Source: Alistipes muris (GTDB taxonomy: Bacteria > Bacteroidota > Bacteroidia > Bacteroidales > Rikenellaceae). Taken from it: a DNA stretch of 64,000 nucleotides. Where the stretch lies: assembly GCF_943193205.1 (NCBI RefSeq), contig NZ_CALPDD010000002.1, positions 124,001-188,000 of the forward strand, given 5' to 3'. Shown here piece after piece: positions 8,228-45,386 of the stretch. The first letter of the stretch is position 1. The number at the start of each line of letters is the position of its first letter. The notes below the pieces were generated by a model, which made no database searches, was not told the origin of the DNA, and saw only the letters and a list, made by a program, of their open reading frames with translations. The translations under genes and the position numbers were made by a program.

Positions 8228-9435
8228 TAGAGGAAATTGTTGAACGGATAGCGTCCGGCGTGGATTTCGCGCACCATGCCGTAGAGGTCGGTGCGGAACT
8301 TCTCGAGGTTGGTCTTCGCGAGCGCCGACAGGAAGATGCAGGGCGATTCGGTCTGCGCCATCCAGCTGCGGCGCAGGTCGTCGAGCGAGAGGTTTTCGCG
8401 CGTCGCGGGGGTCAGGTCGTCCTCCTCTTTCTTAATATAGGTGTAGGCGTCGATTTTGTTGAAGACCATGTAGACCGGCTTGTCGCCCGCGCCTATCTCC
8501 TGCAAGGTCTGCTTCACTACGGCTATCTGCTCCTCGAACTGCGGATGCGAAATGTCGACCACATGGACCAGCAGGTCGGCCTCGCGCACCTCGTCGAGGG
8601 TCGACTTGAACGATTCGATCAGCTCGGTCGGCAGCTTGCGGATGAATCCCACCGTATCCGAAAGCAGGAACGGCAGGTTGTCGAACACCACCTTGCGCAC
8701 CGTCGTGTCGAGGGTGGCGAACAACTTGTTTTCGGCGAAGACCTCGCTTTTGGCGATGAGGTTCATCAGCGTCGATTTGCCCACGTTCGTATAGCCCACC
8801 AGCGCCACCCGCACCAGCTGCCCGCGGTTCGAGCGCTGCACGGCCATCTGACGGTCTATTTTCTTCAGGTCTTCCTTCAGCTTGGCGATGCGGCTGCGGA
8901 TGATTCGGCGGTCGGTCTCGATTTCGCGTTCGCCCGCACCGCCGCGCGTACCCGTGCCGCCGCGCTGGCGTTCGAGGTGGGTCCACAGACCCGACAGCCG
9001 GGGCAGCATGTATTCGTAGTTGGCCAGCTGCACCTGCGTCTTGGCATAGGCCGTCTGGGCCCGCGACATGAAGATGTCCAGAATCAGACGCGTGCGGTCG
9101 AGGATGCGGCAGGGCATCGCCTTTTCGATGTTGCGGGTCTGCGACGGCGTGAGTTCGTCGTCGAAAATCGCCACGTCGATTTCGTTCTCCCGGCAATAGT
9201 CGGCTATCTCCTCCAGCTTGCCCGGCCCCACATAGATGCGCGACGAGGGCTGCGGCAGCCGCTGCGTGAAGCGGCGCACCGAACGGATGTCGGCCGTTTC
9301 GGCCAGGAATTCCAGCTCGTCGAGGAATTCCTCGGCCTGGCGGGGTTCCTGGTTATCACGGACCACAGCCACCAGCACGGCGCGTTCGCACTCGTGCGGC
9401 GCGGGAGCGGATAGGGTATTTCTGTTCTCTTCCAA
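8224..9435 (-). CDS. hflX: Ribosome-associated GTPase HflX
   Basis: A 403-residue HflX. N-terminal domain to about 130 with IYVGPGKLEEI and IFDDELTPSQTRNIEKA; a helical linker with the Gly-rich loop RQRGGTGTRGGAGE; then the G domain with G1 GYTNVGKST (214-222), DTVGFIRKLP (G3 region), and NKID (G4). HflX binds the 50S E-site region and splits stalled ribosomes during stress. The RGG-type loop and the LERQRGG motif are family features. First gene of the hflX-upp-sulfatase operon; no good promoter box was found upstream, only a weak CTATTTG on the minus strand around 9450. Confidence 0.96.
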   Translation of the reverse strand: MEENRNTLSAPAPHECERAVLVAVVRDNQEPRQAEEFLDELEFLAETADIRSVRRFTQRLPQPSSRIYVGPGKLEEIADYCRENEIDVAIFDDELTPSQTRNIEKAMPCRILDRTRLILDIFMSRAQTAYAKTQVQLANYEYMLPRLSGLWTHLERQRGGTGTRGGAGEREIETDRRIIRSRIAKLKEDLKKIDRQMAVQRSNRGQLVRVALVGYTNVGKSTLMNLIAKSEVFAENKLFATLDTTVRKVVFDNLPFLLSDTVGFIRKLPTELIESFKSTLDEVREADLLVHVVDISHPQFEEQIAVVKQTLQEIGAGDKPVYMVFNKIDAYTYIKKEEDDLTPATRENLSLDDLRRSWMAQTESPCIFLSALAKTNLEKFRTDLYGMVREIHAGRYPFNNFLY

Positions 9436-36491: not shown

Positions 36492-36860
36492 GAAAAGGGC
36501 TCTCTGAAAGGTTGTGGAATCCGTGGGCGAAGAGAGGCGGGCATCCGGCCCGCAAAGCTCTTCAGCCGGGATTGGCCCTCGGAGCCACCTTCAGCCCCCG
36601 GTCCCAGCACGCGAGAAGCGCCTGCCGCCGCTGCCGTCCGAACAACGTGTCCCGACGCTGCGGCGCGCAAGAACCCGGCCGCGCGAACGGAAGCGCGGAA
36701 AAACAACGGACGAAAAGGAGGGGGAGGGACAACGGTCGGGCGGCACGCAGGCTACCTGCATGCTGTGCGCCGCAAAGCGCCGGCATTGTGCCGGAACACG
36801 ACGCAAAGGCTATACGCGGAACTATGACCATCGTCCATAAGGGATAAACAGCGTTGGTTA
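36492..36860 (-). ncRNA. Long GC-rich structured leader of corA (candidate)
   Basis: A stretch of 369 bases between the corA start and its probable promoter, with no good open frame on the sense strand. Read on the minus strand it contains several strong local hairpins, for example GGCACAATGCC (near 36780-36800), GCGCTTTGCGGCGC just below it, and GCAGGTAGCCTGC near 36750. It does not match any RNA family I can name, including the M-box pattern I know. A cis-acting Mg2+ or stress sensor is the inference. Confidence 0.35.
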
Positions 36861-36866
36861 ATGCGA

Positions 36867-36874
36867 CAAAGTTA
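36867..36874 (-). promoter_or_regulatory. -7 element TAACTTTG for corA
   Basis: A perfect TAnnTTTG on the minus strand inside an A/T-rich patch (36860-36915) that also has TATACAAAA twice. TTTTG lies 24 bases upstream, a little long. Confidence 0.5.
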
Positions 36875-36926
36875 TACAAAAATCGGTAGCTTTTTATACA
36901 AAACCGTCAAAAAAACCGCCCGAAAA

Positions 36927-36959
36927 CTTGACAAAGGGGGTATCGCCGTTATATATTTG
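36927..36959 (+). promoter_or_regulatory. Strong promoter with no clear gene behind it
   Basis: CTTGACA (from 36927), 21-base spacer from CTTG, then TATATTTG (36952-36959), the best promoter in the window. Transcription would start near 36966 and run rightward into 825 bases without a convincing gene, then the phage cassette. Confidence 0.65.
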
Positions 36960-37790: not shown

Positions 37791-38765
37791 ATGCTATCCT
37801 TCACCACCCAACCCGCAGACTGCGTGCCTGCGGGACAACGAGCCGAATACCGTCTTACGTGCGACCCGGCGCAGACGGCCGACATCCGGATAACGGATTC
37901 GCAGACGGACGAGCTGCTGGGCACCAAACGTTTCGTCGACGTAGCGGAAGCCGTGTTCGATGCCGCGCCCATAGTCCGGCGGCACATCGCGTTCGCCCCC
38001 GAATCCGGCACCGCCACGGGGTTCATCGCGAACACCGACCGGATACGCAGCGTAAAGGTCGCCGCCGCACCGACCGACGCCCCCGCCCAAGCGGTCGTCT
38101 CCTCCGCCAGCGTGTACTACGCCGCCACCGAAGCTGCACCGATTCCGTCGCTGCTGACTGCCATGCCGCTCCAGCGGCTGCTCGCGCCCGGCGAACAAGA
38201 CGAAATCACGCTGCTGAAATACGGTCTGCTGCGGATGACCGTCATGGCCAAGGGACCCGCCGGAGAACGGACGCAGAACTACACCAGCACCTCCACGCCC
38301 ATCCACCTGTTCCGGCTCTGCGCCGACGATTTCCCCGACGCTGAACAGCTCACCCTCGATTTCGCCGGGATCGGAACGATAGTCTACACGACAGCGCCGA
38401 AACCCCACGATGCCTGCCGCCTTGCCTGGCGAAGCCGCGTCGGGTCGCTGGAACACTACACCTTCCCCACCGAAGTCTGCGCCACGGTCGAAGCGTCGAA
38501 AACCCGGATATGCGGTCCCGACGGATATTCGACGACGGCCAGCACGGAAAAACGCCGCACCCGTCTCCGCTCGGCCTACGAAACGCGCACCGCGGCCGAA
38601 GCGCTGGCGGAAATCGTCGCTTCACCGCAGGTGTGGCGGGTGGCGGGCGGGCGCTACGAACCCGTCGACGTAGTGACCGACACGGCCGTGCTCCAGCGCC
38701 AGGGGGTGCTGAACATGCTGGAAATCGAAATCCGCCCCTGCAAAACCGACCGGCCATGGAGATGA
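37791..38765 (+). CDS. Phage tail-associated protein (tentative)
   Basis: A 324-residue protein with no firm family. It starts MLSFTTQPADCVPAGQRAEY and looks beta-rich; RLAWRSRVGSLEHYTFPTEV resembles a motif (W-x-G-x-x-x-YTF) that I associate with tail proteins in Bacteroidota phages. The next gene begins inside its stop codon. Its place at the head of a cassette of phage head and tail genes is the main evidence. No signal peptide. The heptad array ends directly before its start. Confidence 0.5.
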   Translation: MLSFTTQPADCVPAGQRAEYRLTCDPAQTADIRITDSQTDELLGTKRFVDVAEAVFDAAPIVRRHIAFAPESGTATGFIANTDRIRSVKVAAAPTDAPAQAVVSSASVYYAATEAAPIPSLLTAMPLQRLLAPGEQDEITLLKYGLLRMTVMAKGPAGERTQNYTSTSTPIHLFRLCADDFPDAEQLTLDFAGIGTIVYTTAPKPHDACRLAWRSRVGSLEHYTFPTEVCATVEASKTRICGPDGYSTTASTEKRRTRLRSAYETRTAAEALAEIVASPQVWRVAGGRYEPVDVVTDTAVLQRQGVLNMLEIEIRPCKTDRPWR

Positions 38766-41128
38766 CGGTGCAACTCCGCATAGACGGTCGGCCCTGCGAC
38801 CTCGGGCCGGGACCCTGCGCCGTACCGGGCTATTCGGCCGCCCGGACGAGCGACCCGGACGCCTGCCGCGAAGGCCGCAGGATGCAGCTCGCCATTCCGC
38901 CCACCCCGCGCAACCGCACCCTGCTGGGCGACCCTCGCGACCCGCACACGGGGAGCCGCTTCAATGCCGCCCTGCACACGGCGACGATAACGGCCGAAGA
39001 CGCCGTGCTGCTGGAAGGCACGGTCCGCCTGCTGGCGGCATCGGACGAAGCGTTCACCCTCGAAATCCGCGACGGCGGAGCGGGCTGGGCGGAACGGGCG
39101 GCGCGGCGGATGTTCAACACGCTGGGAATCGACTACCTCAACCCGCTTTCGGCCGAGACGGTCCGCCGAAGCTGGACCGACGACGCGCCCGTCAAGTTCT
39201 TTCCCATCCACCGCGACGAATACCCGCAGCTCAACAACCCGCAGGACCTGCTCCCGGCCGAACGGCTGCTGACGGTCGACGACTACCACCCGTTTCTCCA
39301 CGTCGTCACCCTCGTGGAGCGGATGTTCGAGGAAGCGGGCTACCGGATCGAAAGCGCCTTTTTCGCCACGCCGTTCTTCCGGTCGCTCTACATGAGCGGC
39401 GCCTACCCCTCGCGCGACACCTCCGCCGCCACGGCCCGGATGGGTTTCTTCGCCCGGCGGCTGGCCCCGGCGACCGCCACGGCGAGCCCGGCCGGAATGG
39501 TCTACGCCGACCCCAAGGCGTCGGTCAACACGGTGGGCAACATCGTCGACACGGCCACGCCCCAGACGACCGACGCCGACGGCGAAGCGATTCCCGAACT
39601 CTGCAACAACGGCGGCTCGTTCGGCCTGACGAACGGAATGATCCGCTTCACCCCGCCGACGCAGGTGAGCGCCGGGTTCGAGTACTACCTCAAGTACACC
39701 ACCGACCACCGGATAGCAAGCCGCACGCAGCTCCGGGGATTCGACACGGTGTACCTGGGGCCGGGGTCGCGGCTGAACTTCACGCTGGCCAACCGCTACG
39801 AAGACCGCCGCCCGGCGATGCGGGCCAATTACGCCTACCGCATCGTAGTCTTCGGCCACACCGCGGGCAGCCAATACCGGCTGACCTGCACCCTCGACGG
39901 CGTCGCCGGAGCGGCATGGACCACCTTTTCGGGCCGCTCGGCACGGGTTGCGAGCCCGGTATCGGGGAATCCGGCGAACCCCGTTCTGTGGGTCATGCGC
40001 GACGGGCTGTGGACCCGCTACGCGGAAGACTGGGCGCTTTACGACGGCAACGTGGAGGAGACGGGGCAGACGACCGTCGAACTGCGGGTCCGCACAGCCG
40101 CGGAACTCGTCTCGCCTGCATCGCCCAAGTATTTCTACGCCATCAACTTCTCGGGCGCCGAGGCGGGCATGGCACTGACCCTCCACAAGGAATGCTCGCT
40201 GCGGCCCTGCTTCCTTTCGAGCCCGGGCTACGGGTCGGTGCTGCGCTTCGCCGACGTCGCCCAGCACCGCATCCGCCAATCGGAACTGCTCGAAGCGCTG
40301 GCCCACCTGTTCAACCTGCGGTTCTACACCGAGGAAGCCACCCGGCGGGTCTTCATCGAACCTGCCGACGGCTTCTACGGAAGCGGTCCCGAAGCCGACT
40401 GGCGCACCAAAACCGATTTCTCGCAGCCCGTGGTACTCGAAGAAATCGCGCCGCAGATCCACGAAGTGCGCACGTGGTGCTACCAGGAGGGCGACGGAGC
40501 CGTGAAACGCTACGAAAGCGACGCCGACACCGCATTCGGAGCGTGGAGCGTCCGCACCGACAGCTGCGCGGCCAAGCAGGGCGAACGGACCGAACGCAAC
40601 CCGCTGTTCGGCCCCACGCTCAACAGCACGGGACACTACCGCAACGCCCCGGCGGCGCAGCTGATGCAGGTGGGCGACCGCGACGATGCCGCGCAGGACG
40701 GCACCAACTTCACGCCCCGCATCGTGCGCTACATGGGGATGCACCCGCTGCCCGACGGCCAGCGGTGGGGCTACCCGCTCCACGCGGCGGAATATCCGCT
40801 GGCAGCGTTCCACTTTGCGGGCGACGCCACCGGCGAACCATTCACACTCTGCTTCGAGGACCGAGACGGCGCGCAGGGACTGCACCGCTACTACGACCGC
40901 CAGACGACGCAGGAAGCGACCCGCCAACGGATCAGCCTCTCGCTGCGGCTGGCGCCCGACGAATTCGCGGCGCTCCTGGCTCCGGGAACGGGCGCACCGG
41001 ACATCCGGTCGGTCTTCCTGCTCGACACGGGCGGCGACACGGTCCGGGCGACGCTCCACGCCGTCGGCGACTACGACCCCGCCGCAGGCTCGGTCCGCTG
41101 TACGTTCACCCGCCTGCCGGAAGACTGA
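38756..41128 (+). CDS. Large phage tail-tip/baseplate-like protein
   Basis: About 790 residues (start at 38756, MEMTVQLRI; or 38762, MTVQLRI, which overlaps the previous stop as ATGA). The opening has a pattern seen in tail-hub proteins of Bacteroidota phages: an early strand LRIDGRPCDLG, then IPPTPRNRTLLGDPRDPHTG and FNAALHTATITAEDAVLLEGTV-like strands. Later, ELLEALAHLFNLRFYTEEAT followed by VFIEPADGFYG matches the FNL...IEP..DFY motif of such proteins. No enzymatic motif is seen. It is the largest gene of the cassette and has host-like codon use. Confidence 0.6.
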   Translation: MEMTVQLRIDGRPCDLGPGPCAVPGYSAARTSDPDACREGRRMQLAIPPTPRNRTLLGDPRDPHTGSRFNAALHTATITAEDAVLLEGTVRLLAASDEAFTLEIRDGGAGWAERAARRMFNTLGIDYLNPLSAETVRRSWTDDAPVKFFPIHRDEYPQLNNPQDLLPAERLLTVDDYHPFLHVVTLVERMFEEAGYRIESAFFATPFFRSLYMSGAYPSRDTSAATARMGFFARRLAPATATASPAGMVYADPKASVNTVGNIVDTATPQTTDADGEAIPELCNNGGSFGLTNGMIRFTPPTQVSAGFEYYLKYTTDHRIASRTQLRGFDTVYLGPGSRLNFTLANRYEDRRPAMRANYAYRIVVFGHTAGSQYRLTCTLDGVAGAAWTTFSGRSARVASPVSGNPANPVLWVMRDGLWTRYAEDWALYDGNVEETGQTTVELRVRTAAELVSPASPKYFYAINFSGAEAGMALTLHKECSLRPCFLSSPGYGSVLRFADVAQHRIRQSELLEALAHLFNLRFYTEEATRRVFIEPADGFYGSGPEADWRTKTDFSQPVVLEEIAPQIHEVRTWCYQEGDGAVKRYESDADTAFGAWSVRTDSCAAKQGERTERNPLFGPTLNSTGHYRNAPAAQLMQVGDRDDAAQDGTNFTPRIVRYMGMHPLPDGQRWGYPLHAAEYPLAAFHFAGDATGEPFTLCFEDRDGAQGLHRYYDRQTTQEATRQRISLSLRLAPDEFAALLAPGTGAPDIRSVFLLDTGGDTVRATLHAVGDYDPAAGSVRCTFTRLPED

Positions 41129-41158
41129 AAACAAACCCTTTACAAAACCTCAAAAAAA

Positions 41159-42031
41159 ATGGACTTTCAAATTCGCAACGCCTCCGATGCCTGCCACATC
41201 GACATCGAGGGGACGATCGGAGTGCCCGAAGAATGGCAGTTCGACCAACCGCAGCAGCGTGTGGCCACCTACGAAAAATTCCGCGACGCCGTGCAGCGCA
41301 TCGCCGAAATCGACGCCCCGGAAGTGGTGGTCAACATCCGCTCGACGGGCGGCGACGTCAACGACGCACTGCTGATTCATGACGCTTTGCGCCAACTCCC
41401 GGGCCGCGTCACGACCCGCTGCTACGGCTACACCGCCTCGGCCGCCACCATCATCGCGCAGGCCGCCAGCGAGGGCCGCCGCGAAATTTCGGCCAACGCC
41501 CTCTACCTGATCCACACCTCCATCTGCGCCACCGAGGGCAATGCGGCGGAACTGAGCGGCAAACTTGACCTGCTTCGCCAGACCGACCGCCGGCTGGCCG
41601 AAATCTATGCCGCCCGCTCGGGACGCACCGCAGAGGAGTTCGAGACGCTGATGGCCGAGAACAACGGCAGCGGCCGCTGGCTCTCGCCCGAAGAGACGGT
41701 TGCGGCGGGGCTGGCCGACACGATTGTGGGCGCAGAAGAAAAACCGGCCGAACAAAAGCCCAAGAACGCTGTGCGCGGCTGGGAAAAACTCCTCACCCAC
41801 TTAGGAATCCGCACCCCCGCCCCGCCGCAGCTGCCCAAGGACCGCAATGTCCTGCATTTCGACGACGACCACGCCGCCGCCCAACGCCGCTCGGAAGTCG
41901 CAGCCGAAGAAGCGTTCCTCCATGCCGGACCCACCCGGGTCCTGCCCTGCGACGACCCCGGCTATGCCGAAGCCGTCCGGTCGGCCAACCAACGGGCCTA
42001 CGACGCCGACGCACGCCAGTTCCGGAAATAG
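41159..42031 (+). CDS. ClpP-like phage head maturation protease
   Basis: A 290-residue protein; residues 1-190 have the ClpP/SppA crotonase-like fold: NIRSTGGDVNDALLIHDAL, the Ser nucleophile Ser94 in GYTASAATI, His119 in LYLIHTSI. The remaining 100 residues (KNAVRGWEKLL onward) are unlike ClpP and could be a scaffold or capsid-targeting part. Phages with this type cleave scaffold and capsid proteins; here it lies directly before the capsid gene, as usual for head genes. It is not the housekeeping ClpP: sequence, neighbours and C-terminus differ. Confidence 0.8.
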   Translation: MDFQIRNASDACHIDIEGTIGVPEEWQFDQPQQRVATYEKFRDAVQRIAEIDAPEVVVNIRSTGGDVNDALLIHDALRQLPGRVTTRCYGYTASAATIIAQAASEGRREISANALYLIHTSICATEGNAAELSGKLDLLRQTDRRLAEIYAARSGRTAEEFETLMAENNGSGRWLSPEETVAAGLADTIVGAEEKPAEQKPKNAVRGWEKLLTHLGIRTPAPPQLPKDRNVLHFDDDHAAAQRRSEVAAEEAFLHAGPTRVLPCDDPGYAEAVRSANQRAYDADARQFRK

Positions 42032-42038
42032 CGACGAA

Positions 42039-42115
42039 AATTCACAATTCACAATTCACAATTCACAATTCACAATTCACAATTCACAATTCACAATTCA
42101 CAATTCACAATTCAC
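42039..42115 (+). repeat. Eleven perfect AATTCAC repeats
   Basis: Eleven exact tandem copies of a 7-base unit, the purest array in the window, 7 bases after the protease stop. On the other strand the unit reads GTGAATT, the same class as the AATTRTG arrays. Confidence 0.95.
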
Positions 42116-42122
42116 AAAAAAA

Positions 42123-42182
42123 GTCATGTTGAACGCAATTAAACATCTGTAAAACAGATTCTTCACTTCGTTCAGAATGACA
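42123..42182. repeat. REP-like dispersed repeat, copy 3
   Basis: GTCATGTTGAACG at the left and TTCAGAATGAC at the right, inverted, with CATCTGT and ACAGATTCTTC forming an inner stem. It lies between two heptad arrays, inside the phage cassette. Confidence 0.8.
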
Positions 42183-42217
42183 ATTTTTAATTCCTAATTT
42201 TTCATTTTTAATTACAA
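42183..42217 (+). repeat. A/T-rich heptad array before the capsid gene
   Basis: ATTTTTA, ATTCCTA, ATTTTTC, ATTTTTA, ATTACAA in phase, ending 6 bases before the capsid ATG. Confidence 0.7.
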
Positions 42218-42223
42218 CAAGCC

Positions 42224-43201
42224 ATGAGTTTCTTGGAAAACGCCAAACAGTACACCGGTGCCGACCTCGACACCATCTTCTTCCGACCCTTTCTGACCGG
42301 GCCCTCGGCCCAGGAACTGGGCGTGCGGGTGCTCTACAACATGCCCGTCCCCACCACCGTCCAACTTTGGGACGGACGGCTCAACATCCTTCAGAAACAC
42401 ACCGGAAAAGGCTGGACCGGGGGCGCCGCCGCCACCAAATACCAGAAGACCATCTCCCTGAACCGCGTCAAGGCCGAACTGGGCTTCTCGGCCTCCGACT
42501 ACTTCTCGCTGGTCTACGAGAAAATCGCCACGGGCCCCGACGTCAACATGGACGACCTGACGGGCACCCAACTCGAACAGGCCGAGACCGAATTGTTCCG
42601 GCAAGCCGTCGCCGAGAGCATCCGCGCCACGATGTGGGTGGGCGACATCGAAGCGACGAAAGGCTACAACACTTTCGATGGATTCCTCAAGACCGTCAAC
42701 GACTGCATGGTTGCCGAATCGTTCTACACCCTGCCCTACCAGCAGGCGAGCCTCAACGCACCCGACGGCGTCATCGAGATTTTCGACGCCCTGTGGAAGA
42801 ACGCCGACACACGCCTGCAAGACGGCAAAGCCGAGGGGCAACTTGCGTTCTTCGTCACCTCGGACCTCTATTTCCTCTACGAGAAGTATCTCGACACCAA
42901 AGGCACCGACGCGGCCTACATCGACTCGATGAACGGGCGCCAGACCCTCGCCTACCACGGCATCCCGGTTGTCGACGTGCGGCTGGGCAACTACCTCCCG
43001 GAGACCTCGTTCCACCAGTCGTTCTGCCTGCTGACCGACCGCCGCAACCTGGTGCTGGCGGTCAACACGGCCGACTTCCCGGGCAACGAAGTCCGCATGT
43101 GGTACAACCCCGACGAAATGGAAAACCGCCAGCGCGCCCTCTTCATGGCCGGCTGCGACGTGCTCGACGAAACCCTGCTCGCCTATGCCTACCGCGAATA
43201 A
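42224..43201 (+). CDS. Phage major capsid protein (probable)
   Basis: A 325-residue protein. FLENAKQYTGADLDTIFFRP at the start, LNRVKAELGFSASDYFSLVY, and a C-terminal MENRQRALFMAGCDVLDETL before AYAYRE are typical of a capsid-like subunit: the end fits the P-domain strand where HK97-fold proteins close. No protease cleavage region is obvious at the N-terminus. It lies after the head protease and before the portal gene. The assignment rests mainly on position and shape; sequence identity to a known capsid was not checked. Confidence 0.6.
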   Translation: MSFLENAKQYTGADLDTIFFRPFLTGPSAQELGVRVLYNMPVPTTVQLWDGRLNILQKHTGKGWTGGAAATKYQKTISLNRVKAELGFSASDYFSLVYEKIATGPDVNMDDLTGTQLEQAETELFRQAVAESIRATMWVGDIEATKGYNTFDGFLKTVNDCMVAESFYTLPYQQASLNAPDGVIEIFDALWKNADTRLQDGKAEGQLAFFVTSDLYFLYEKYLDTKGTDAAYIDSMNGRQTLAYHGIPVVDVRLGNYLPETSFHQSFCLLTDRRNLVLAVNTADFPGNEVRMWYNPDEMENRQRALFMAGCDVLDETLLAYAYRE

Positions 43202-43265
43202 ACGCCGCGCCCGCAGAGACCGTAAAGCGCTTCTGCGGGCGCTTTCTCCCCAAAACACCCCTGCC

Positions 43266-44492
43266 ATGGAACGCAAAAACCCCAAAATCGCCCTCGGCGT
43301 CACTGCCCGCACCGACCCCTACGCCACGCTTGGCGCCGCGACGGTCCGCAGCGACAAGTTCTGGCGCTGGGGCGACGACAATCTTTTCCCCAGCGCGCTG
43401 GCGCTGATGGCCCGCCGCTCGAACACCCACCGCCGCATCATCAACGACAAGGCCGACTACATTTCGGGCAAAGGCTTCGTCTGCGACGAGACGGCACAGC
43501 CCCGGCTCCGGGCGTTCGCCGACCGTGTCAATCCGCTGGGCGAAAGCCTGCGGCAGGTGCTCAACAAACTGGCTTTCGACAAGGCGCTTTTCGGCAACGC
43601 CTTTCTGGAAATGGTGACCGACGCGCAGCACTCCTTTCTGGCGCTCTACCACCAGGACGCCACCCGCTGCCGCATCGCCCGCGACGAACGGCACATCCTC
43701 CTGCACCACGACTGGGCGGCCTTCAAACCCGGCGAAGCGCAGACGCTGCCCCTCTACCCCGCATTCGAGGAGCAGGCCGACGGCACCGTGCGATCGCTGA
43801 TCCACTACAAGGACTACGAACCCATGTACACCCACTACGGCGTACCGCCCTACATAGCCGGATTCGGAGCCTCGGCCATCGCCTACAAGACCGACCGCTG
43901 GAACATTTCGCGCCTGGACAACTCGTTCCAGCTCTCGGGCGTCCTGCTGCTCGATTCGGCGGTCGACAACGAAGCCGAAGCCGAACGCATCACGCGGCTG
44001 GCCGAGGAGAAGTTCGCCGGCAACCCCGGGCAGGTCATGTTCGTCATCCGCGACGGCGGCGACGAAAAGGACCATTCGCAGTTCATCCCCATCTCCTCGC
44101 AGAACGAGGGCGACTGGCAGGCGCTCCACGCACAGGCCGTCGGCGACATCGTGGTGGCCCACTCGTGGTTCCGGACCCTGAGCGGGCTCGACTACGCCGG
44201 AGGCTTCAGCGCCGAACGCATCCTCCACGAATACGAAGTGGCGCTCAACACGGTGATTCTCGGCGAGCAGGCCGAACTGATGGAACCCATCCGCGAAGCG
44301 CTCCGCACCGTGGCGGGGCTCGACGCCTCGTCGCTGCAAATCGTCAACCGCCCGCCCACGCGCTCCAAACCCATCTACATGAAGGTCTGGGAAGCGCGCA
44401 AGGCCGACGGCCTGGACTACGACCCCGACGACGAGCGCCAGCAGGCCTTTCTGTCGGAAATCACGAAGTACAACATCCGAAGCATCGAATAA
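43266..44492 (+). CDS. Phage portal protein
   Basis: A 408-residue portal protein: WRWGDDNLFPSALALMARRS, NTHRRIINDKADYISGKGFV, then KALFGNAFLEMVTD and a C-terminal helical part with ILHEYEVALNTVILGEQAEL. This pattern (residual host-vertex ring with a crown-like end) fits phage portals seen in Bacteroidota. The portal is the DNA gate and docking site for the terminase, which is not present here. Start at 43266 (MERKNPKIA) is chosen over 43185, which would overlap the capsid gene. Confidence 0.8.
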   Translation: MERKNPKIALGVTARTDPYATLGAATVRSDKFWRWGDDNLFPSALALMARRSNTHRRIINDKADYISGKGFVCDETAQPRLRAFADRVNPLGESLRQVLNKLAFDKALFGNAFLEMVTDAQHSFLALYHQDATRCRIARDERHILLHHDWAAFKPGEAQTLPLYPAFEEQADGTVRSLIHYKDYEPMYTHYGVPPYIAGFGASAIAYKTDRWNISRLDNSFQLSGVLLLDSAVDNEAEAERITRLAEEKFAGNPGQVMFVIRDGGDEKDHSQFIPISSQNEGDWQALHAQAVGDIVVAHSWFRTLSGLDYAGGFSAERILHEYEVALNTVILGEQAELMEPIREALRTVAGLDASSLQIVNRPPTRSKPIYMKVWEARKADGLDYDPDDERQQAFLSEITKYNIRSIE

Positions 44493-44965
44493 TGAAGACA
44501 CTGATAACTCCGGCGCAGGTGCTCGCAACGGCGTTCGGCGACGGCGAAACCCTCCCGCCCTCGACCGTCGCCGCTGCCGACATCGCCGCCGCCGAAGCCC
44601 GCTGGATCGTCCCGGCCATCGGCCGCAGGCTCCACGAAAAACTGCTGATCGGGGGCTACTCCGACTTCCGCAACGAGTATCTCGCAGCCCCCACGGCTTT
44701 CTACACCCGCGCCCTGCTGCAACCCCGGCTCGACGTGAGAACCGACCGCAACGGCACAATGACCCCCGAATCCGCCTACGGAAAACCTGCCGACGAAGAA
44801 GCCCGGCGCAAACTGCGGCGGCATCTGCTCCTGCAAGCCCGCACCCTGCTCGACCGTGCCGTCGCCTACCTCGACGAACGCCCGGCCCTCTTTCCCGAAT
44901 ACGAACCCGGCGCCAACCCAGCCGCCCGCGGCTCCGTCTGCGGCGGCATCGTACTGCTCCGCTAA
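44492..44965 (+). CDS. DUF6712 head-tail connector-like protein
   Basis: A 157-residue helical protein beginning MKTLITPAQVLATAFGDGE and IVPAIGRRLHEKLLIGGY, the DUF6712 pattern, a gp6-like connector in phage contexts. It shares one base with the portal stop (TAATG). Expected to join the portal to the tail. Confidence 0.75.
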   Translation: MKTLITPAQVLATAFGDGETLPPSTVAAADIAAAEARWIVPAIGRRLHEKLLIGGYSDFRNEYLAAPTAFYTRALLQPRLDVRTDRNGTMTPESAYGKPADEEARRKLRRHLLLQARTLLDRAVAYLDERPALFPEYEPGANPAARGSVCGGIVLLR

Positions 44966-44981
44966 AAAACAATCTTAACTT

Positions 44982-45386
44982 ATGGCAAGAGGTCTGAACA
45001 ACCGCAATCCCGGCAACATCCGCCAGTCGAAAGGCCGCTACAAAGGCGAGGTCCGACCCTCGCGCGACCCGGCGTTCAAACAATTCGAGACCATGGCATG
45101 GGGCTACCGGGCGATTTTCGTGCTGCTCCACACCTACCGCACACGCCACGGACTGCGTACCATCGCCGCAATGATCGCCCGCTGGGCCCCGCCCTCGGAA
45201 AACAAAACCGAACTTTACATCCGCACCGTCTCCTGCCGAAGCGGAATCCCTGCCGACCGGCCGCTCGACACCCGCGACCGTCGCACCATGATTCCCATTG
45301 CGGCAGCCATTTCGTTCGTCGAGAACGGCACGGCCGCCGACATGCACGACGTCGAAAAAGGGTGGGAGCTGTTTGCCGATTCATAA
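44982..45386 (+). CDS. P5-like virion peptidoglycan hydrolase
   Basis: A 134-residue protein of the structural protein P5 family: RGLNNRNPGNIRQSKGRYKG, FKQFETMAWGYRAIFVLLHT, and IARWAPPSENKT. These proteins have a lysozyme-like fold and are found in phage virions or in host copies in many Bacteroidota. There is no signal peptide. Its last codon and TAA lie in an ATTCATA heptad array. Confidence 0.8.
   Translation: MARGLNNRNPGNIRQSKGRYKGEVRPSRDPAFKQFETMAWGYRAIFVLLHTYRTRHGLRTIAAMIARWAPPSENKTELYIRTVSCRSGIPADRPLDTRDRRTMIPIAAAISFVENGTAADMHDVEKGWELFADS

Follow-up and report, generated by a model that had tools for sequence, protein, structure and literature searches.

Results

Phage-type genes between ordinary chromosomal genes

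The window, meaning the whole 64,000-nucleotide stretch of Alistipes muris DNA that was analysed, carries at positions 37791-45386 a cassette of seven intact ORFs, all on the + strand, with corA (CorA) on one side and rplY (L25)/pth on the other. An earlier sequence-only reading had described seven co-directional, intact genes between ordinary chromosomal genes, with GC content and codon use like those of the host; ORFs and family matches confirm the first description and the composition of the cassette the second. The genes and the predicted promoter of the cassette are as follows.

36927-36959, + strand: cassette promoter, CTTGACAAAGGGGGTAT (36927-36943) and TATATTTG (36952-36959)
37791-38765, + strand: g1, tail-tip protein; 324 aa, all-beta, fast evolving
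38756-41128, + strand: g2, tail hub/tip protein; 790 aa, AlphaFold pLDDT 92
41159-42031, + strand: g3, ClpP-like head maturation protease (PF00574, 3.5e-25; phrog_94, 2.2e-38)
42224-43201, + strand: g4, major capsid protein (MCP; phrog_1623, 6e-8)
43266-44492 (longer ORF from 43185), + strand: g5, portal (PF04860, 7.4e-12; phrog_11226, 1.2e-20)
44492-44965, + strand: g6, DUF6712 head-tail connector (PF20459, 8.2e-9), which also follows the portal in phage L260
44982-45386, + strand: g7, endolysin-like (P5-type) hydrolase (phrog_873, 1.2e-44, a phage muramidase/structural domain)

The family match of g4 is weaker than those of the other head genes, and the capsid call is backed by position and by phage relatives. 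The protease Ser, His and Asp of g3 are kept in 21/21 sequences. Family searches (Pfam, PHROG) with g1 and g2 gave no match, and PDB profile searches with g1, g2 and the capsid gave no convincing relative. The AlphaFold model of g1 (pLDDT 95) matched Bacteroidota-phage proteins in BFVD at TM 0.75-0.83; its comparison with the PDB returned generic Ig/FnIII matches only and was set aside. The g2 model matched the Bxb1 tail tip and a Mu gp44/MuSo2-type hub weakly, and the homologue of g2 in phage L260 immediately precedes the tape measure. The protease, capsid, portal, DUF6712 protein and tip homologues, in native phage order, show the derivation from tailed-phage structural genes that is expected of a gene transfer agent (GTA). 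Genes for self-propagation (integrase, recombinase, replication) were found neither at the cassette nor at the terminase locus described below. Genes of relatives were called with a home-made codon-usage finder.

The statement that there is no terminase and no holin is true within the window, but it does not extend further: the terminase TerL lies elsewhere in the same genome, in broken form, and cassettes of sister species do carry a holin. A Phage_holin_4_1 gene is located between g6 and g7 in many of these species (L039, L040, L047 and L049 among them), and both a holin and a transglycosylase are present in cassettes of relatives. No holin was found in the window's genome. Two contigs of this genome, C19 and C20 (L308, L309), consist mostly of N.

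The promoter consists of a block, CTTGACAA(A/G)GGGG..., followed at near-fixed spacing by the Bacteroidetes-type -7 element TATATTTG. Upstream of the cassette, this motif is present in 47/66 Alistipes loci and in seven loci that represent six other genera. Within the window's own genome, 855 kb contain only two look-alikes. The motif is absent from TerL loci and from both related phages. An operator common to the cassette and the TerL locus was therefore ruled out for this motif. At 36500-36880 of the window, conserved noncoding blocks (CAATCCCGGCTGAAGAGG, GGAACTATGACCATC) lie upstream of corA, as in many Alistipes; they are perhaps a leader RNA of the transporter.

Gene order and reduction of the tail

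The position of the tail-tip genes before the head genes had been called unusual, but this is the order native to related phages. In a prophage of Alistipes G152 and in the IMG/VR phage L260 the genes run hub - tape measure - (small gene) - protease - capsid - tube-like - portal - DUF6712, with a tape measure of 734 or 1013 aa (phrog_3336). Because both have it, the tip-before-head arrangement is considered ancestral.

The tape-measure position is empty in the window, where ~30 bp separate g2 and g3, and Alistipes cassettes in general have no tape measure. Genera g9, g13 and g20 have a gene of 96-212 aa at this position, with a motif at its C-terminus that is similar to the end of the G152 tape measure, a homology by motif only. 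The tube-like gene c28, a putative tail tube by position, is kept in several genera, in rumen Alistipes and in G134, and is lost in the window's clade. Searches of 18-25 genomes with PF10145, phrog_3336 and the G152 tape measure gave no cassette-linked match; because the phrog_3336 scan also missed the known G152 tape measure, its negative result carries little weight. No further tail gene was detected by blastp of phage and cassette proteins against 879 kb of the 1949 kb of the window's genome, and named phage genomes gave remote portal matches only.

Several short "viral" contigs in IMG/VR (L248-L255) are chromosomal pieces of the Rikenellaceae cassette and were probably classified as viral in error. 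Other families of the order (L118-L123, in G418 and G406) also have cassettes of protease, capsid, portal and DUF6712 genes, near which a terminase-like gene lies on the opposite strand. No recognised tail genes were found in them, and G418 has two copies beside secreted-type proteins. These are possibly further head-only domesticated elements.

A terminase at a second locus

In genera g8 and g14, TerL (phrog_38, 4e-92) adjoins the cassette. Other genera have a homologous TerL at a separate locus, made up of a divergent XRE/S24 repressor (phrog_4, 2e-33), a small gene and then TerL, and this linkage was seen in ~20 genomes. In g9 and g13 the locus also includes a TerS gene (phrog_309). The small protein encoded between repressor and TerL (L082:10964-11257 and homologues) is conserved in ~15 genomes, measures ~92-97 aa and is without a family match. 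In most genera the cassette and the TerL trio thus lie apart, the dispersal over several host loci that is known from GTAs.

TerL was found in 169/180 Alistipes genomes (68/70 of those of high quality), mostly at full length without stops and at 69-94% identity among the matches listed for the genus; the search found none in G161 and G169. Walker A, the DD of Walker B and two acidic motifs of the nuclease are found unchanged in 24/24 sequences, and the Ser, Lys and Ala-Gly cleavage site of the repressor is kept in 17/18. Portal and TerL distances are correlated (r 0.83), though the loci lie apart.

The sequence-only reading had proposed to look for a terminase elsewhere in the genome. It is present at the second locus, but a deletion has broken it: compared with the close relative G140, TerL of the window's genome (L082, ~9380-9400) lacks 374 bp between 11-bp direct repeats, with the result that the reading frame is shifted and the nuclease domain is incomplete. 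The deletion is seen in one assembly and the relatives are intact. The same reading had raised the possibility of a particle without its own DNA packaging. This is not borne out for the family, whose second locus holds one copy of TerL that has every catalytic motif and is inherited together with the cassette. In the window's genome, however, the disruption of TerL may have partly disabled the system.

Spread and inheritance across the Rikenellaceae

The portal is usually single-copy and was found in 172/180 Alistipes genomes (68/70 of high quality) at ~60-86% identity. Across the family it occurs in 132/150 genomes and 18/22 sampled genera with open frames at 52-86% identity. In the order outside the Rikenellaceae few genomes match the portal, and these matches are weak and prophage-type (25-39% identity). 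The Alistipes cassette occupies one locus adjoining corA, which in the window's clade is upstream of rplY/pth. The variable insertion, integrase or attachment sites and pseudogenes of an ordinary or decayed prophage were not seen; the locus is fixed and the frames are mostly intact.

Comparison with nine congeners (NG86) gave dN/dS values of 0.08-0.37 for the capsid, 0.14-0.24 for the portal, 0.16-0.27 for g7, 0.17-0.34 for the protease, 0.22-0.33 for g2, 0.25-0.42 for g6 and 0.34-0.62 for g1, with dS possibly underestimated at the divergence of these congeners. The dS of the cassette is within the range of its host neighbours corA, rplY and pth. Like the genes of GTAs, those of the cassette are passed on vertically as host genes and maintained by purifying selection. 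Amino-acid distances in 24-25 genomes follow those of RpoB (portal r 0.84, MCP 0.75, TerL 0.73). The number of splits in common with the RpoB tree is 16/22 for MCP, 13/21 for TerL and 12/22 for the portal, with ~0.2 expected by chance. Supported conflicts with the RpoB tree number eight for the portal, six for TerL and none for MCP, and may reflect occasional exchange or tree error.

Losses were also observed. Capsid and portal are gone in G137, and an internal loss in G174 (L165) has taken exactly these two genes, leaving the TerL trio and the other cassette genes in place. Genera g10, g12 and g22 have neither cassette nor TerL. The genomes are drafts, often MAGs, and absence in low-quality ones is weak evidence.

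Conservation and dN/dS across the genus had been proposed as a check, and the cassette proved to be nearly everywhere with dN/dS well below 1. Absence from sister strains, inactivation in relatives or a complete prophage with these genes in normal order would have spoken against domestication. Instead, nearly all sister species have the cassette, it is intact in most of them, and no normal-order complete prophage surrounds it. The view that intact genes point to selection is strongly supported by family-wide inheritance, the fixed locus, dN/dS and the conserved promoter.

Discussion

The data presented here are best explained by an ancient, host-owned, vertically inherited, GTA-like DNA-packaging capsid system that is encoded at two loci and has an ablated tail, to which we assign a probability of roughly 60% from sequence analysis. 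The likeness to a GTA is suggested by genes for head, packaging, tip and lysis functions that are vertically inherited and selected at two loci, with no integrase or replication genes beside them; the tail that would deliver DNA is reduced. A gene-transfer-like particle had been one of the options in the suggestion of a domesticated particle, and domestication is strongly supported while the particle itself is predicted. More tentatively, and at somewhat less than even odds, the gene content may describe a family-wide Bacteroidota GTA with a deleted tail, in which filled heads carry a tip complex only and packaging is controlled from the locus of TerL and the LexA-like repressor.

Under the proposed model, the domestication of a siphovirus-like prophage would date back to an ancestor shared by most Rikenellaceae. 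The locus in the window would be transcribed from its own conserved promoter and would supply head proteins, tail-tip/hub and lysis enzyme(s), and the second locus would supply the packaging ATPase/nuclease TerL (with TerS in some genera) beside a divergent self-cleaving repressor of the LexA/CI type. A stress signal could then lead to loss of the repressor, with SOS control and repressor action on either locus being presumed. Heads would assemble on the portal, TerL would fill them with what are predicted to be chromosomal fragments, and holin and endolysin would release particles for a putative transfer. These particles would have only a tip or a very short tail, because the window's clade has no tube-like gene and the tape measure, after an initial shrinkage, was deleted. 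The tail may have been lost in the sequence of a shrinking tape measure, then its loss, then loss of the tube. In the window's genome the system is probably impaired because of the 374-bp deletion in TerL and because no holin was detected.

Several observations count against the GTA reading. No tape measure was found and the tube-like gene is absent in the window's clade, which leaves delivery to recipients without an evident route. The window's genome has a frameshifted TerL and lacks a holin. Core parts are lost in some congeners (capsid and portal in G137 and G174, TerL in G161 and G169), and several genera are without both loci. The TerL locus does not have the promoter motif of the cassette, and the portal and TerL trees agree only incompletely with RpoB. 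In a faecal VLP study the GTA-like DNA came mainly from Ruminococcaceae and Oscillospiraceae, and no GTA was reported for Rikenellaceae, though these were abundant in total DNA (PMC12946183); this is also counted against a GTA.

Selection that maintains capsid, portal, tip and hub although the tape measure and the tube-like gene are gone would also be expected of a head-type particle domesticated for another job, such as a killing or decoy capsid with a tip or a compartment for storage or secretion. No genes would then be transferred, and TerL would be retained for some other, or dispensable, reason. The window's genome, which has intact structural genes and a broken TerL, would fit this as well. 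However, TerL with all its catalytic residues is among the best conserved parts family-wide, which points to DNA packaging, and we consider this explanation unlikely, though it deserves consideration. Piecemeal losses (the tape measure, the tube-like gene, the holin, TerL in the window's genome, capsid and portal in G137/G174) are what a very old, slowly decaying and functionless prophage remnant would show. This is quite improbable: frames are open family-wide with portals 52-86% identical, dN/dS lies well below 1, and promoter and catalytic residues are conserved. Neutral genes are not expected to stay open across a whole family. Least probable, and very unlikely, is a still mobile element that repeatedly reinfects the family, either a satellite or a defective phage that depends on help from other prophages. 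A related true prophage in the congener G152 and different neighbours of the cassette in different genera are in its favour, but the CorA-L25 locus is fixed in the genus, the cassette is single-copy, trees are largely host-congruent and integrase or attachment-type genes are lacking; the synteny disfavours it.

Alistipes and its relatives rank with the most abundant bacteria of the human gut. In the open-licence literature we found no published GTA for Alistipes, Rikenellaceae or Bacteroidota, so if DNA-filled particles are made, they would be a gene-exchange route of Bacteroidota for which no earlier report was found, in nearly every strain. The cassette is easily overlooked by prophage or virome tools, and pieces of it appear as short "viral" IMG/VR contigs. 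The family-wide series of tail-gene losses amounts to a natural experiment that can reveal how far a domesticated phage is reduced and what it must keep, and it points to the protease, capsid, portal and TerL as the essential parts. Cultured species make direct tests possible.

Comparison with known systems

RcGTA and CcGTA of the Alphaproteobacteria are phage-derived, vertically inherited and host-controlled, with dispersed genes, and the Rikenellaceae system as predicted here resembles them in these same respects. However, RcGTA-type particles are tailed, whereas in the Rikenellaceae system the tape measure is either missing or reduced to 96-212 aa, and many Alistipes have lost the tube-like gene. 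The present system is also distributed in the Rikenellaceae rather than in Alphaproteobacteria, and it is set apart from RcGTA by description. The phages L260 and G152, uncultivated and siphovirus-like phages of Bacteroidota, have the same gene order, and the L260 portal is ~47% identical. They keep a tape measure of 734-1013 aa, whereas the cassette has none and differs further in its fixed locus, single copy and separate TerL.

FpGTA of Faecalibacterium prausnitzii is encoded by two operons and forms ~40-nm particles without visible tails, in which packaged DNA has been shown (PMC12946183). The Rikenellaceae system is like FpGTA in having two chromosomal loci with phage head, packaging, tail-tip and lysis genes that are conserved across a gut genus. 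It differs in that FpGTA has a Firmicute host and is assumed to have a separate origin, which sets it apart by description, and in that TerS/TerL of FpGTA sit with portal and capsid while the Rikenellaceae TerL is at a second locus beside the repressor. Particles and packaged DNA are demonstrated for FpGTA, whereas the Rikenellaceae system is known from its genes. By analogy, FpGTA is the closest precedent for the Rikenellaceae system.
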